Below are positions 36,188 to 39,329 of a stretch of DNA of 41,518 nucleotides, in pieces; position 1 is the first letter of the stretch, and every line of letters begins with the position of its first letter. The stretch lies in the NCBI GenBank assembly GCA_030041495.1, contig JASHNT010000074.1, positions 1 through 41,518 of the forward strand. The letters run 5' to 3'. This stretch comes from Bryobacteraceae bacterium. Its GTDB lineage: Bacteria; Acidobacteriota; Terriglobia; Bryobacterales; Bryobacteraceae. A program made the translations under genes and the position numbers. The notes beneath the pieces are model-generated. The model was not told the origin of the DNA, ran no database searches, and saw nothing but the letters and a program-made list of their open reading frames with translations.

Positions 36188-36195
36188 TTCGTTAG
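36188..36195. repeat. Target-site duplication, left copy
   Basis: TTCGTTAG directly abuts the left inverted repeat and is repeated exactly at 39322-39329 behind the right one. A perfect 8-bp duplication is the mark of one transposition event and fits the 8-9 bp duplications of IS1-type transposases. Confidence 0.95.
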
Positions 36196-36220
36196 GGTAG
36201 TGTCCTAAATCTGCGTTGAC
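36196..36220. repeat. Left terminal inverted repeat
   Basis: Begins GGTAGTGTCCTAAATCTGCG; inverted partner at 39297-39321 with mismatches at positions 15, 16 and 24 of 25. The outermost 14 bp are identical. Confidence 0.92.
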
Positions 36221-36272
36221 CCCGAAACAGCAACCGGTTGTATTTTGGTCTGACTCCGCGCACACTGGGAGC

Positions 36273-36563
36273 ATGCCAGCAACAGACCGCGAACGCGATC
36301 TCCACGCGCTCCGCAACATCCTCGACGAAGCGCACGTAATCCTCACCACCATAGATCTACCGCAAGGCCGCGTAAAACGCGCCGCGCAATTGCTCACATC
36401 TGCACTCGCGCTCGCTGATGATCTGATTGCCGCGCCGTCAGTCGCTGTCGCACTTGGCCAGCGCGGTGGATTGAAGACCGCCGAACGTGGGAGTGACTAC
36501 TTCCGCAAGATTGCCGCGAAGCGCAAAACCCGCGGTGGCGGCAGGCCGCGCAAAGTAGACTAA
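36273..36563 (+). CDS. Transposon passenger protein 1, small helical, basic C-terminus
   Basis: 96 residues from the ATG at 36273; an alternative TTG at 36216 would lie within the terminal repeat and is rejected. Predicted mainly helical (ATDRERDLHALRNILDEAH, VKRAAQLLTSALALADDLI). The C-terminus ends in a basic AT-hook-like stretch (KRKTRGGGRPRKVD), compatible with minor-groove DNA binding. The ribosome-binding site GGGAG is very close to the ATG. No known family is recognised. As the first gene inside the element it may regulate transposition or bind its ends; this is inference. Confidence 0.55.
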   Translation: MPATDRERDLHALRNILDEAHVILTTIDLPQGRVKRAAQLLTSALALADDLIAAPSVAVALGQRGGLKTAERGSDYFRKIAAKRKTRGGGRPRKVD

Positions 36564-36568
36564 GTATA

Positions 36569-36603
36569 GCCCTCCATCCCTCCATCCATCCAACCCAACC
36601 CCT
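36569..36603. repeat. CCATC-rich low-complexity tract
   Basis: Short imperfect run of CCATCC/CCCAACC units between passenger genes 1 and 2; no gene or stem-loop is seen in it. Confidence 0.6.
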
Positions 36604-36636
36604 TGACAGGGGCCAATCCATGTACGAAGATTGGCT

Positions 36637-37059
36637 ATGGCCCTGATCGCTGAGACCCTACAGGGGGACCTAGACAAAATTCGGAAGGAGAAGGCCGAAA
36701 TTGAGGCGCGAGTCCAGGAGATGGGAGCACGTCTAGCGACCTTGCAAACGCAAGAGCGAGGCCTTCAGGCCGCGCTCGATTATTACACTGCCACATCAAA
36801 CACTAGGCCCATTCAGAGCACTGTTGCCAGCACGGCAGACTTTGCGTCCATGACCATTGCAAAAGCTGCGGCTTTGATATTTCGAGACAGGCAGAATCAT
36901 TGGTTAACCACGCGTGAGTTAGTGGCCGCGTTCGCCGAACGCGGCAAAATCACGTCCTATAATGCGATGGACATAACCTTGAAAGATGCTTCTAAAACCT
37001 TCGAGAAGAAGAAGGAGAGAGGCAAGAACTACTTCAGATTGACAGAACCGGAGTGGTAA
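36637..37059 (+). CDS. Transposon passenger protein 2, coiled coil plus winged-helix-like domain
   Basis: 140 residues from the ATG at 36637. The N-terminal ~50 residues form a heptad-rich coiled coil (LDKIRKEKAEIEARVQEMGA, RLATLQTQERGLQAALDYY). After a Thr/Ser linker, residues about 70-138 look like a small winged helix (MTIAKAAALIFRDRQNHWLT, TRELVAAFAERGKITSY, then a KKKERGKNYFRL wing). It probably dimerises and binds DNA. A strong hairpin lies 8 bp after the stop. No named family is recognised. It is read in the same direction as the transposase and may be a regulator of the element. Confidence 0.65.
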   Translation: MALIAETLQGDLDKIRKEKAEIEARVQEMGARLATLQTQERGLQAALDYYTATSNTRPIQSTVASTADFASMTIAKAAALIFRDRQNHWLTTRELVAAFAERGKITSYNAMDITLKDASKTFEKKKERGKNYFRLTEPEW

Positions 37060-37067
37060 AAAGCAAA

Positions 37068-37087
37068 AGGCCCGTTGACGCGGGCCT
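37068..37087 (+). terminator. Intrinsic-terminator-like hairpin after passenger 2
   Basis: AGGCCCG pairs with CGGGCCT around a short loop (7 GC-rich pairs plus a possible T-G), beginning eight bases after the passenger 2 stop and followed by CAGCTTTGATTT. The T tract is interrupted, so termination strength is uncertain. Confidence 0.6.
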
Positions 37088-37204
37088 CAGCTTTGATTTC
37101 TCAGTTCGAGCGCAGTGTATGAAACAAACGCCCTACGTGTATCTTAACCCAATTCGTGGACCACCACAAGCTCTAAAATCCGCGCCGAAGTGCGTGGAAG
37201 GTTT

Positions 37205-37230
37205 GCGGAGCCGCAGAAATGCGGCTCCGC
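37205..37230. other. Perfect 11-bp hairpin with GAAA tetraloop
   Basis: GCGGAGCCGCA - GAAA - TGCGGCTCCGC: eleven uninterrupted pairs closed by a GNRA loop. It is not followed by a T tract, ends 6 bases before the tRNA-like gene and so is more like a structured RNA element or processing signal than a terminator. Inverted on either strand, so orientation is unknown. Confidence 0.75.
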
Positions 37231-37236
37231 GCATAT

Positions 37237-37315
37237 GGCCGGAGCGCTTATCCTGGAAGGTCCTGGGACGGGAGCCTGCAACTCCCGAGCGATGGGTTCA
37301 AGTCCCACTCCGGCC
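37237..37315 (+). tRNA. Non-canonical tRNA-like gene with 8/4 acceptor/T-stem geometry (allo-tRNA-like)
   Basis: 79 nt. The acceptor stem is 8 perfect pairs (GGCCGGAG with CTCCGGCC) stacked directly on a 4-bp T stem (TGGG-TTCAAGT-CCCA, seven-base loop), a 12-bp branch in 8/4 instead of 7/5 arrangement. The anticodon stem is 6 bp (CGGGAG/CTCCCG) with loop CCTGCAA, giving anticodon UGC (Ala codon GCA) with an odd C at position 33; a one-base shift would read GCA (Cys). The D region between acceptor and anticodon stem is 24 nt (24 bases 9-32) with possible stem TCCT/GGGA. Discriminator is T, no CCA is encoded, and T6 follows at 37320. Decoding function is unproven; it could also be a regulatory RNA. 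Confidence 0.7.
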
Positions 37316-37354
37316 TCACTTTTTTATCGTCAGGAAACGCATTTTGGTTGTCAA

Positions 37355-37384
37355 CTGCGTTGACAAAAGCAACCGGTTGCTGTA
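37355..37384. repeat. Internal copy of the left-end motif before the transposase
   Basis: CTGCGTTGAC followed by CAACCGGTTG-like bases recurs here and at the left end (36211-36243), with a 5-base longer spacer at the left end. The copy overlaps an inverted repeat TTGTCAA...TTGACAA at 37348-37366 and ends just before the transposase ATG. It may be a transposase or repressor binding site, or a relic of an earlier left end. Confidence 0.7.
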
Positions 37385-37394
37385 TTATCAAAGT

Positions 37395-38330
37395 ATGAAG
37401 TGTCCCACTTGCAAAGCCGAAGGACAGCGGTTCGGAACCAACCGAAACGGTAGCCAGCGCTTTCGCTGCGTGCAGTGCAAAAAAACCTACAGCGCTCCGG
37501 TGACGGATCGCCTGCCTGGTTCCACTATCCCGTTGGCCACGGTAGAGAACGTCCTTCAGCTTCTCATCGAGGGTTGCTCCGTGCGCTCCGTGGAGCGTAT
37601 CAGCGGGCTACACCGCGACACAATGTTGAAGCTGTTGGTTGCCGCTGGCGAGAAGTGCGAAAAGCTCCTGGGCCGTCTAATCGTTAACGTTCCCGTCCAG
37701 GATGTGTCCGCAGATGAGATGTGGGGATTCATTTTCAAAAAAGAGAAGGCCATGCGTTCAGATGACGATCCCAACTATGGCGATGCTTATTGCTTCGTAG
37801 CGATGGAAAACAACACGAAGCTCGTTTTGAACTTCGCTCTTGGAAAACGAAATCAGGCGACGACGGATATCTTCATCGAAGGCTTGCGACACGCTACTGC
37901 TCATGGCCGTTTCCAAATCACGACGGATGGCTTTAGGCCGTATCTTTCCTCAATCCCGAACACGCTCGCGGATCGAGCCGACTTCGCCACGCTGTCCAAG
38001 ATCTATCGCGCTACGCCGGAAGGCGAACGTCGCTATTCCCCTGCCGAAGTAGTCGCTACGGAGGTAGTCCCAGTCATGGGCGAACCCGATCCAAAGCGCA
38101 TTTGTACAAGTCACATCGAGCGCCAAAACCTCACGATGCGGATGCAGATTCGACGCTTAACCCGACTGACCAACGGGTTCTCAAAGAAGTGGGAGAACCA
38201 CTGGGCCGCGCTATGCCTGCACTTCGCCTATTACAACTTCTGCCGGATTCACCGCACGCTTCGGGTAACCCCGGCCATGGAGGCTGGCATCTCAGATCAT
38301 CCGTGGGAACTGCTGGAATTGCTCACTTAA
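37395..38330 (+). CDS. IS1-like DDE transposase with N-terminal zinc ribbon
   Basis: 311 residues from the ATG at 37395 (the upstream open frame is not protein-like). N-terminal zinc ribbon C3, C6, C25, C28 (MKCPTCKAEG and FRCVQCKKTY), an HTH-like segment (LLIEGCSVRSVERISGLHRD), then a DDE core with D107 (SADEMWGFIFKKEK), D178 (FQITTDGFRPYL) and E242 (TSHIERQNLTMRMQIRRLTR). The final stretch is FSKKWENHWAALCLHFAYYN. HIERxNL plus the zinc ribbon are characteristic of IS1-type enzymes; here it is a single unshifted frame. It would cut at the inverted repeats and make an 8-bp duplication. Length normal; intact. Confidence 0.93.
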   Translation: MKCPTCKAEGQRFGTNRNGSQRFRCVQCKKTYSAPVTDRLPGSTIPLATVENVLQLLIEGCSVRSVERISGLHRDTMLKLLVAAGEKCEKLLGRLIVNVPVQDVSADEMWGFIFKKEKAMRSDDDPNYGDAYCFVAMENNTKLVLNFALGKRNQATTDIFIEGLRHATAHGRFQITTDGFRPYLSSIPNTLADRADFATLSKIYRATPEGERRYSPAEVVATEVVPVMGEPDPKRICTSHIERQNLTMRMQIRRLTRLTNGFSKKWENHWAALCLHFAYYNFCRIHRTLRVTPAMEAGISDHPWELLELLT

Positions 38331-38350
38331 AAAAGAAGTACAATCCTCCA

Positions 38351-39220
38351 GTGGTCAAGAACCGCTGGCTATTTGCTGCTTCGGTTGTATTCGTGTGCGC
38401 GTGCTTCGCGCAGTCAAAGCCACCAGCCCCAACTCCAACTGTAATTGCTCAAGCAAAGAAGAGCCAGACTGCACCAAAAGAGACACAGGGTGGTCCAGAT
38501 CAGAATCCATCCCAACCATCGTCGCCCGTTACCATTAACCAAACTTTCCCCATAGTAGGCAGCGGGGAACAGCAGCGCCAAACAAACCAAACAAAAAATT
38601 CCGCGATTCCTGATTGGCTTGTCGCCATCTTCACTGGTGGACTGCTGCTCACCGCGATCTTGCAATGGATCGTCATGAATCGGGCTTTGGCCGAGAACAA
38701 AAGAACCGTTGAGGCTGCTAAGTCTTCTGCGGAAATCGCCCAGAGAACTCTTGAGGTTACTCAGCAAGCAAGCATCAGCATTCGTAGTGCCGAACTTAAA
38801 TATACAAGGCCGAAGAATACGCCGCAAACCAACCGAACGCACGCCGCGTATCTTAGAGCAGAGGTTACGGTTCAGAACTTGGGGCACAGTCGAGCCGAAC
38901 AGGTAGCTTACGAATTTGAGCTTGGCTATACCGCCGCCCAAGACTCCTCCATAGTCGGGAGTCTCGGCACCGTCCAGACATCCGAAATCCGCTCCTTCGT
39001 TTCCCAAGAATTCTTTCATCTGTTCCCCAACTGCTTGGATACCGATGTTCTTCACAACGACATTGACAAAGGCCGCTTTCATATCAGGGGCACGGTTTCC
39101 TACTTGGACATCTTCAAGAACAATTTGTGGTCCATTGTTCTGGACCGGTCCTTGGCTTCAATGAAGATGGCGGCTTCAATGAAGATGGCGACTATGTTTT
39201 TGATCTCAAGAGCAGCGTAG
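38351..39220 (+). CDS. Transposon passenger protein 3, exported membrane protein of unknown function
   Basis: 289 residues from the GTG at 38351, 20 bases after the transposase stop; an ATG/TTG further up overlaps the transposase and is disfavoured. A signal peptide or first helix (RWLFAASVVFVCACFAQS) is followed by a Pro/Thr/Gln-rich stretch, a membrane helix (WLVAIFTGGLLLTAILQWIV), a short coiled coil (NKRTVEAAKSSAEIAQRTLE) and a C-terminal strand domain (AEVTVQNLGHSRAEQVAYEF, FHIRGTVSYLDIFKNN). The last ~20 residues look wrong: a neighbouring frame gives a better tail (see findings). Codon use is AT-richer than the host genes. No family recognised. Confidence 0.6.
   Translation: MVKNRWLFAASVVFVCACFAQSKPPAPTPTVIAQAKKSQTAPKETQGGPDQNPSQPSSPVTINQTFPIVGSGEQQRQTNQTKNSAIPDWLVAIFTGGLLLTAILQWIVMNRALAENKRTVEAAKSSAEIAQRTLEVTQQASISIRSAELKYTRPKNTPQTNRTHAAYLRAEVTVQNLGHSRAEQVAYEFELGYTAAQDSSIVGSLGTVQTSEIRSFVSQEFFHLFPNCLDTDVLHNDIDKGRFHIRGTVSYLDIFKNNLWSIVLDRSLASMKMAASMKMATMFLISRAA
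39154..39189. repeat. 18-bp tandem duplication in passenger 3 C-terminus
   Basis: Unit GGCTTCAATGAAGATGGC repeated twice without mismatch. In the annotated frame it encodes ASMKMA twice; in another frame it encodes GFNEDG twice. Confidence 0.95.
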
Positions 39221-39296
39221 AAGAAACCCCACACACAAAACAAGATCGAGGCCCAAGGACAGAGGGATAAAAACCGGTGCGCTACGATCTCTAAGA

Positions 39297-39321
39297 GCCA
39301 ACGCATTTTTAGGACACTACC
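39297..39321. repeat. Right terminal inverted repeat
   Basis: Reads, inverted, as GGTAGTGTCCTAAAAATGCG, matching the left end 36196-36220 in 22 of 25 positions; directly followed by the second TTCGTTAG copy. Confidence 0.92.
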
Positions 39322-39329
39322 TTCGTTAG
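39322..39329. repeat. Target-site duplication, right copy
   Basis: TTCGTTAG, identical to 36188-36195. Confidence 0.95.

Follow-up and report, generated by a model that had tools for sequence, protein, structure and literature searches.

An 8/4 tRNA-like gene in an IS1-type transposon of Acidobacteria and its possible part in a private decoding circuit

The transposon and its passenger genes

The window, which is the whole stretch of DNA that was analysed, comprises positions 1-41,518 (41,518 nucleotides) of contig JASHNT010000074.1 of a Bryobacteraceae bacterium; labels of the form Lnnn denote other loci that were compared with it. It contains a transposon that spans 36196-39321, with 23-nt inverted ends that are 91% complementary and with the target duplication TTCGTTAG on both sides (8/8, perfect). 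The element is composed as follows:

36196..36218, no strand: left terminal inverted repeat of 23 nt, with the target duplication TTCGTTAG outside it at 36188-36195
36273..36563, plus strand: passenger ORF 1 (96 aa), a small basic protein ending GGRPRKVD, with an internal ATG chosen as start
36637..37059, plus strand: passenger ORF 2 (140 aa), by eye a coiled coil with a winged-helix-like tail
37053..37166, plus strand: mini-ORF from the ORF list and the R[GA]PP scan, starting with GTG 37053, overlapping the ORF 2 stop and reaching Arg-Gly-Pro-Pro at 37155-37166
37205..37230, plus strand: GC-rich hairpin immediately 5' of the tRNA-like gene, GCGGAGCCGCA-GAAA-TGCGGCTCCGC as read from the sequence
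37237..37315, plus strand: 8/4 tRNA-like gene, from fold, covariance models and covariation, with the loop CCTGCAA and U73, CCA not encoded
37320..37325, plus strand: T6 tract as read from the sequence, possible transcript end of the tRNA-like gene
37360..37388, plus strand: transposase promoter-like site TTGACA-17-TATTAT (11/12 matches), with the palindrome GCAACCGGTTGC in the spacer
37395..38330, plus strand: IS1-like transposase (311 aa; NF033558, PF03400) with an N-terminal zinc ribbon
38351..39220, plus strand: last passenger ORF (289 aa, start chosen), no family match in Pfam and NCBIfam
39299..39321, no strand: right terminal inverted repeat, with TTCGTTAG at 39322-39329

Transposons of the IS1 family have terminal inverted repeats and generate target duplications of 8-9 bp, and both traits are found in the window element, whose duplication has 8 bp. 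A sequence-only reading of the locus had placed the tRNA-like gene inside a transposon, and the intact repeats and duplication around the gene bear this out. The transposase matches PF03400 with 29.9 bits (cut-off 24.1) and NF033558 with 90.3 bits (curated cut-off 100), and 8 of the 12 plasmid relatives among the matches listed are annotated as IS1 family. A label as IS1595 was considered and dropped, as the NF033558 match and the IS1-annotated plasmid relatives favour IS1. The element shares the transposase domain, the GGT ends and the 8-bp target duplication with the IS1-family insertion sequences, from which it differs as a long single-ORF form of about 3.1 kb with passenger genes and the tRNA-like gene.

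The product of passenger ORF 1 is a possible repressor; it had no match in Pfam at E 0.1 and none in NCBIfam at E 0.01. The palindrome AGCAACCGGTTG occurs twice, near the start of this ORF (36226-36240) and in the transposase promoter (37365-37379), and in several other elements a different palindrome was seen by eye at the equivalent promoter place. These promoter palindromes suggest that the small passenger protein provides element-specific repressors. The promoter scan found one sigma-70-like site, with 1.5 expected in shuffles. For passenger ORF 2, NCBIfam gave no match and all five Pfam matches were below the cut-off, and ORFs judged similar by eye are found ahead of the tRNA-like gene in L016, L034, L185 and L311. 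The 289-aa passenger ORF contains a perfect 18-nt tandem duplication, GGCTTCAATGAAGATGGC, at 39154-39189.

Fold and homologues of the tRNA-like gene

As read directly from the sequence, the tRNA-like gene has an acceptor stem of 8 bp (GGCCGGAG/CTCCGGCC), a T stem of 4 bp (TGGG/CCCA) with the T loop TTCAAGT, and an anticodon stem of 6 bp (CGGGAG/CTCCCG) with the loop CCTGCAA, in which positions 34-36 are UGC, GCA lies one base away, and position 33 is C. The interval between acceptor and anticodon stems has 24 nt and that between anticodon and T stems only 5 nt (AGCGA), so a long variable arm is absent, and the discriminator is U73. An extra 3-bp helix GCU/AGC (37246-37248 with 37288-37290) lies between the acceptor and the D arm and is whole in 4 of 5 homologous sequences. 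This reading agrees with the folding program, and the 8/4 fold described in the sequence-only reading, with its stems, TTCAAGT loop, 24-nt interval and U73, thus stands; the T6 tract is not directly behind it as had been stated, CAC being placed between U73 and the tract, and the terminator scan did not call the tract (37320-37325).

The predicted fold has -37.4 kcal/mol, which is equalled by 2 of 200 shuffles (z -2.2), a support that is modest if taken alone. The gene was not called by ARAGORN, and Rfam including RF00005 did not report it at the gathering threshold, the best Rfam match being tRNA-Sec (RF01852) with 22.9 bits at a gathering score of 47. A covariance model built from 14 ordinary tRNAs only also matched the gene with 22.9 bits (E 0.004 in 648 kb from 81 sources).

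Four homologues in four further genomes were aligned with the window gene. A DNA search of 300 genomes gave a full-length copy with 89% identity (L185) and a partial match (L186), L059 was obtained by the transposase search and L311 by an 8/4 covariance model. In these five sequences, 7 of 25 pairs are changed on both sides and 98.4% of the cells are paired, and neither figure was reached in any of 500 shuffles. The acceptor, anticodon and T stems are 100% paired throughout, each of the four acceptor pairs that vary does so with compensation, and shifting the pairing partner by 1-3 columns abolishes the covariation signal. In an earlier alignment of four sequences there were 5 double-changed pairs, which 9 of 500 shuffles matched. 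The sequence-only reading had proposed a look for the same gene in other genomes and for compensatory changes, the lack of which was to speak against the fold; with homologues at hand and seven double-changed pairs in five sequences, the opposite is found. The 8/4 model scored the first four copies above 98 bits among 257 genomes of the order, the next matches having at most 42 bits, and one further copy, L311, came from 399 genomes sampled across the class. The second-tier matches had been considered as Cys relatives, and four that were inspected in other genomes are ordinary tRNA-Ala(CGC) genes. A second full-length DNA copy was not found in the window's own genome, nor did the region match phage records.

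A fold that arose by chance within a coding region might be suspected, as the gene lies within the open frame 37053-38330 and the shuffle z-score is only -2.2, but this is contradicted by the covariation, the gene is matched by an independent tRNA model, and the RGPP frame of L186 ends within the tRNA-like gene, so that the probability of a chance fold is negligible. It is confirmed that 37237-37315 is a structured tRNA-like RNA gene inside an IS1-type transposon.

All five 8/4 copies are located in elements bounded by terminal inverted repeats or adjoin the transposase. Repeats, target duplication and transposase are all present in the case of the window and L059, and the copy in L186 adjoins transposase fragments. 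The copy in L185 belongs to a 1.1-kb element (L185:532-1631; repeats by eye, target duplication 7/8) that has both passenger ORFs, the hairpin and the tRNA-like gene without a transposase and that can be regarded as a natural minimal cassette. L311 has its copy in a 2.4-kb element with other ends, the target duplication CCCGCAAA and a second tRNA-like gene in tandem. At L312:4593-6960, an element with unrelated ends (GGKAATAATATACTTGAC) and an 8-bp target duplication has two tandem tRNA-like genes, a short one with a G3:U70 pair and an 8/4 one. The IS1-like transposase queries gave no match in L311 or L312.

Identity of the tRNA-like gene

G73 is an identity element for SerRS, and U73, which presumably would fit Cys, is also usual in Gly tRNAs. 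The sequence-only reading had seen an allo-tRNA in the gene, and the 8/4 branch holds, as it covaries, whereas an allo-tRNA of the Ser type does not, because the gene has no long variable arm and U73 instead of G73. A Cys identity, which is based on U73, is tentative, and pairwise comparison with the 44 host tRNAs called by ARAGORN gave ambiguous nearest matches with none clear for the window gene. U73 together with UGC at 34-36 is shared by the window, L059, L185, L186, L311 and L034. This combination and the mobility of the transposon would be in line with a missense tRNA that is spread by the transposon and inserts Cys or a different amino acid at Ala GCA codons throughout the host, or with a synthetase decoy. 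An amino-acid identity cannot be assigned from the sequence, however, C33 is present in 3 of the 5 8/4 copies, host-wide miscoding would be costly, and according to the excerpts of the review PMC7609411, E. coli synthetases were unable to charge irregular allo-tRNAs of a related kind. A missense or decoy function thus appears improbable.

tRNA-like genes as a class in these elements

The window gene belongs to a larger class, a context that escaped the sequence-only reading, as did the arrest-motif mini-ORF and the matching stop codons described below. Unique transposase regions, defined by a different 180-nt stretch of the transposase, number 126 and come from 80 of 179 relatives that were kept, 60 stretches picked from a search of 151 genomes, and L186. 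In 27 of them a tRNA-like gene precedes the transposase at a distance of 20-450 nt and in the same orientation, with 0.2 expected; there are 28 matches on this strand and 1 on the other, and a same-sized downstream stretch has 1. L186, which had been retrieved by way of its tRNA-like gene, was added to this count by hand, and without that choice there are 27 matches in 26 regions. With the criteria used, 61 of the 126 regions have terminal inverted repeats and a target duplication, and 16 of these delimited elements contain tRNA-like matches of at least 20 bits (17 matches in 192 kb; 1.4 expected from the host tRNA density, P 2.6e-13), while the flanks of the same loci have 5 matches in 293 kb, which corresponds to a 5-fold excess in the elements (P 6e-4). 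The other 45 delimited elements gave no tRNA-like match, and none was found with the closest transposase relatives L271/L272 (81%), L009 (75%) and L010 (74%), which is why the tRNA-like gene appears to come and go. L246 and L274 were dropped as duplicates and L061, L053, L125 and L151 as weak matches, and L085 and L278, which are tRNA-like by eye, were excluded from the counts.

The bodies of these genes differ among the elements. There are Leu-like genes with UUA or CUA, Ser-like genes with CCA or CAA, U73 types with UGC, and a short type with a G3:U70 pair and no D arm, these labels being leads rather than proofs, taken from discriminator, variable arm and similarity by eye. Each transposon gene shares 61-78% identity with the closest of the 44 host tRNAs (ARAGORN), a set in which CUA and UUA anticodons are absent. 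Short G3:U70 genes that by eye lack the D arm were seen upstream of the transposase in L022, L048, L054, L063, L066, L085 and L154, and they resemble the tRNA-like half of tmRNA. A two-hairpin second leader, conserved by eye, lies between the tRNA-like gene and the transposase start in L017, L026, L033, L040 and others. The genome of the window itself has an ochre-type UUA Leu-like tRNA in an IS1-like element (L126:4578-4665; contig C17:99877-99964); the element has terminal inverted repeats and an 8-bp target duplication, and as this tRNA passes the Rfam tRNA cut-off, an annotation might list it among the ordinary host genes. No matches were obtained when transposases were scanned for with L126 as the query.

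It could be supposed that the tRNA is a captured one that is neutral or decaying and only hitch-hikes in the transposon. The window gene has no canonical tRNA call by ARAGORN or Rfam, its loop CCTGCAA is odd and has C33, the genomes searched contained no more than four close relatives, and the closest transposase relatives are without the gene. Such a hitch-hiker would however not be expected to show seven compensated pairs and three fully paired stems, to recur at the same position in 27 of 126 regions, and to be kept in the shortened L185 element that has no transposase gene, and it is therefore quite improbable.

The main rival is an RNA punctuation, in which RNase P and 3' nucleases cut the fold and thereby part the passenger from the transposase mRNA, with the transposase also shielded from outside transcription, and in which anticodon and charging are irrelevant. 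This would account for the position and the diversity, as place and strand are mostly constant just upstream of the transposase, the body types are very diverse, and L022, L048, L063, L066 and L154 have by eye lost the D arm and kept the acceptor and T arms. On the other hand, the gene is encoded inside the element but opposite to the transposase strand in L126, L032, L050 and L036, and punctuation leaves unexplained the match of stop codons and anticodons described below. It is unlikely, if the most serious of the alternatives.

An arrest motif and matching stop codons upstream of the tRNA-like genes

In a number of elements, a mini-ORF with Pro-Pro is situated between the last passenger ORF and the tRNA-like gene, and in the window and nine other elements it contains R[GA]PP. 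RGPP and RAPP are experimentally established ribosome-arrest motifs, and according to the excerpts of PMC12992588, RGPP gives the most stable arrest of these motifs and, in many bacterial phyla, is avoided more strongly than any other sequence of four residues. R[GA]PP was found within 200 nt upstream of 10 of 36 tRNA-like genes, in comparison to 2.0% of 16338 control windows (P 1.6e-9) and 0.9% in shuffles, the 36 genes being not all independent, with the two of L016 counted once and with L031, L185, L186, L311 and L244 included though the ordinary-tRNA model had not called them. The motif is present with 8 of 8 stop-reading but only 2 of 28 other tRNA-like genes. The Arg codon varies among the elements (CGC, CGT, AGA, AGG), which speaks for a selection on the peptide. 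In the window, RGPP is encoded by CGT GGA CCA CCA and the frame does not end behind it, as it is open from 37053 to 38330, through the tRNA-like gene into the transposase ORF; in L186, the RGPP frame closes inside the tRNA-like gene. R[GA]PP is missing in L059, L185 and L311, and L059 has KGPP instead. Short ORFs at about the place of the mini-ORF, which end with I-E-P-P-stop or start with M-x-P-P(P), were seen in the leaders of L010, L271, L272 and L185 and of L026, L042 and L020, with or without a tRNA-like gene.

Eight elements have a tRNA that should read a stop codon, and in each of them a stop that matches the anticodon is positioned 1-3 codons before the Arg of R[GA]PP:

CUA anticodon with TAG stop: L011, L056, L031, L273
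UUA anticodon with TAA stop: L016, L017, L036, L126

The rule was drawn from L011, L056, L017 and L031 and then written down, and L016, L036, L126 and L273, which were examined after that, all fit. L031 and L273 have a large anticodon loop with CUA assigned by eye, L031 itself having been spotted by eye, L016 has two tRNA-like genes with UUA in the second, and L017 has C33. A scan that was blind to tRNAs searched loci of at least 1500 nt on both strands (3.47 Mb including overlaps) for R[GA]PP with an in-frame stop at most 5 codons away, and among 37 unique cases 10 had a tRNA-like fold behind, 8 of which are the suppressor elements. The remaining two were discarded, as L266 is an ordinary host tRNA-Leu gene (TGA) and L284 has an implausible fold. 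The 4-versus-4 match of stop and anticodon alone has P 0.014, and P is 0.006 for the in-frame stop, which 8 of 8 suppressor elements have and 0 of 3 further elements with RGPP or KGPP, both values being weakened by shared ancestry: L036 and L126 have similar passengers, and L017, L031 and L273 have similar leaders. L017 on the one side and L031/L273 on the other are alike in leaders and passengers and differ in stop and tRNA together, which looks like a linked change.

A six-member Leu-type model detected 30 loci in 257 genomes, namely four known elements, L246 (the same as L011), L244 with a Leu-type gene that has a CCA anticodon and no RGPP, and others that are Leu(UAA) genes or, in a few cases near contig ends, stretches in which the gene was not seen. 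The DNA pattern CGYGGRCCACCA was set aside, as its frequency in 61 genomes, judged by eye, was about that of the reversed control.

The window mini-ORF has no in-frame gating stop before RGPP, the frame being open from GTG 37053, and in the 34 codons before RGPP there is no GCA codon; two GCG codons are present, the nearer one 15 codons off. A GCA codon rule for the UGC class was considered and rejected, since GCA immediately precedes R-P-P-P in L034 and occurs further upstream in the L186 mini-ORF, and the window, L059, L185 and L026 are counter-cases, with no GCA shortly before Pro-Pro in L059 and L185.

A possible decoding circuit

In the window element, passenger ORF, RGPP mini-ORF, hairpin, tRNA-like gene, transposase promoter and transposase follow one another in this order, and it is about evenly balanced whether the tRNA-like gene belongs to a passenger cassette whose own tRNA controls the access of ribosomes to the arrest motif. 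The tRNA-like RNA would be processed and charged and, by reading a programmed codon in the mini-ORF, would act in cis on the element that encodes it. Once past this codon, ribosomes would stall at R-G-P-P and thereby determine how strongly the cassette, and perhaps also the transposase, is expressed; the arrest may hold open the hairpin in front of the tRNA-like gene, or the message may be spared or destroyed. In the suppressor versions the gate would be a stop codon that is passed only if the element's tRNA reads it. As no gate was found in the window, the tRNA-like RNA may there be ungated or differently gated, and its part in the circuit is inferred from a motif that is present with no gating codon.

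In a more general form, which must be seen as tentative and somewhat doubtful when taken as a whole, IS1-type transposons of Acidobacteria would carry a private decoding circuit. A dedicated tRNA would read a single programmed codon, which is UAG or UAA in eight of the elements, before R-G/A-P-P, with stop and anticodon changed together, the arrest would gauge the level of the element's tRNA and set the expression of cassette and transposase, the 8/4 gene of the window would be the version with a non-stop anticodon, and the acidobacterial allo-tRNAs would largely be parts of such transposons.

Relation to known systems

The window gene resembles the allo-tRNAs (Mukai et al. 2017, via the excerpts of PMC7609411) in the 8/4 branch, the long anticodon stem and the occurrence in Acidobacteria, and differs from them by the absence of a long variable arm, by U73 instead of G73, and by the anticodon UGC; for the window gene, the transposon with its ends, the class-wide position and the arrest-motif mini-ORF are seen in addition. 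The same excerpts report polycistrons of irregular tRNAs in soil transcriptomes and describe selC* tRNA-Cys, with which the window gene shares the 8-bp acceptor stem but not the long variable arm, the A51a bulge and the opal anticodon. Suppressor tRNAs of phages with stop recoding (PMC9523058) are similar in that the tRNA of a mobile element reads the element's own stops, but phages recode many genes, while the suppressor elements have a single stop, located in a mini-ORF ahead of an arrest motif. The known RAPP/RGPP arrest peptides likewise are small ORFs with the motif upstream of possible regulated genes (PMC12992588, PMC10951233 and PMC10987492) and, unlike the transposon mini-ORFs, accompany genes for protein localization, TonB or copper (PMC12992588, excerpts). 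PMC12992588 contains neither 'transpos' nor 'stop codon', and its excerpts describe no tRNA gene, and the titles and abstract openings among the matches listed from the open-licence literature included no transposon-borne suppressor tRNA, no tRNA-carrying IS and no stop-gated arrest leader.

The acidobacterial allo-tRNAs, with their scattered anticodons and puzzling use, thus gain a possible home and a testable job, and the RGPP arrest peptides a new setting and a putative new type of control. Should the circuit exist, mobile elements would spread a suppressor tRNA together with the sole codon that needs it, a natural pair of a tRNA and a recoded codon in which each would control the other.
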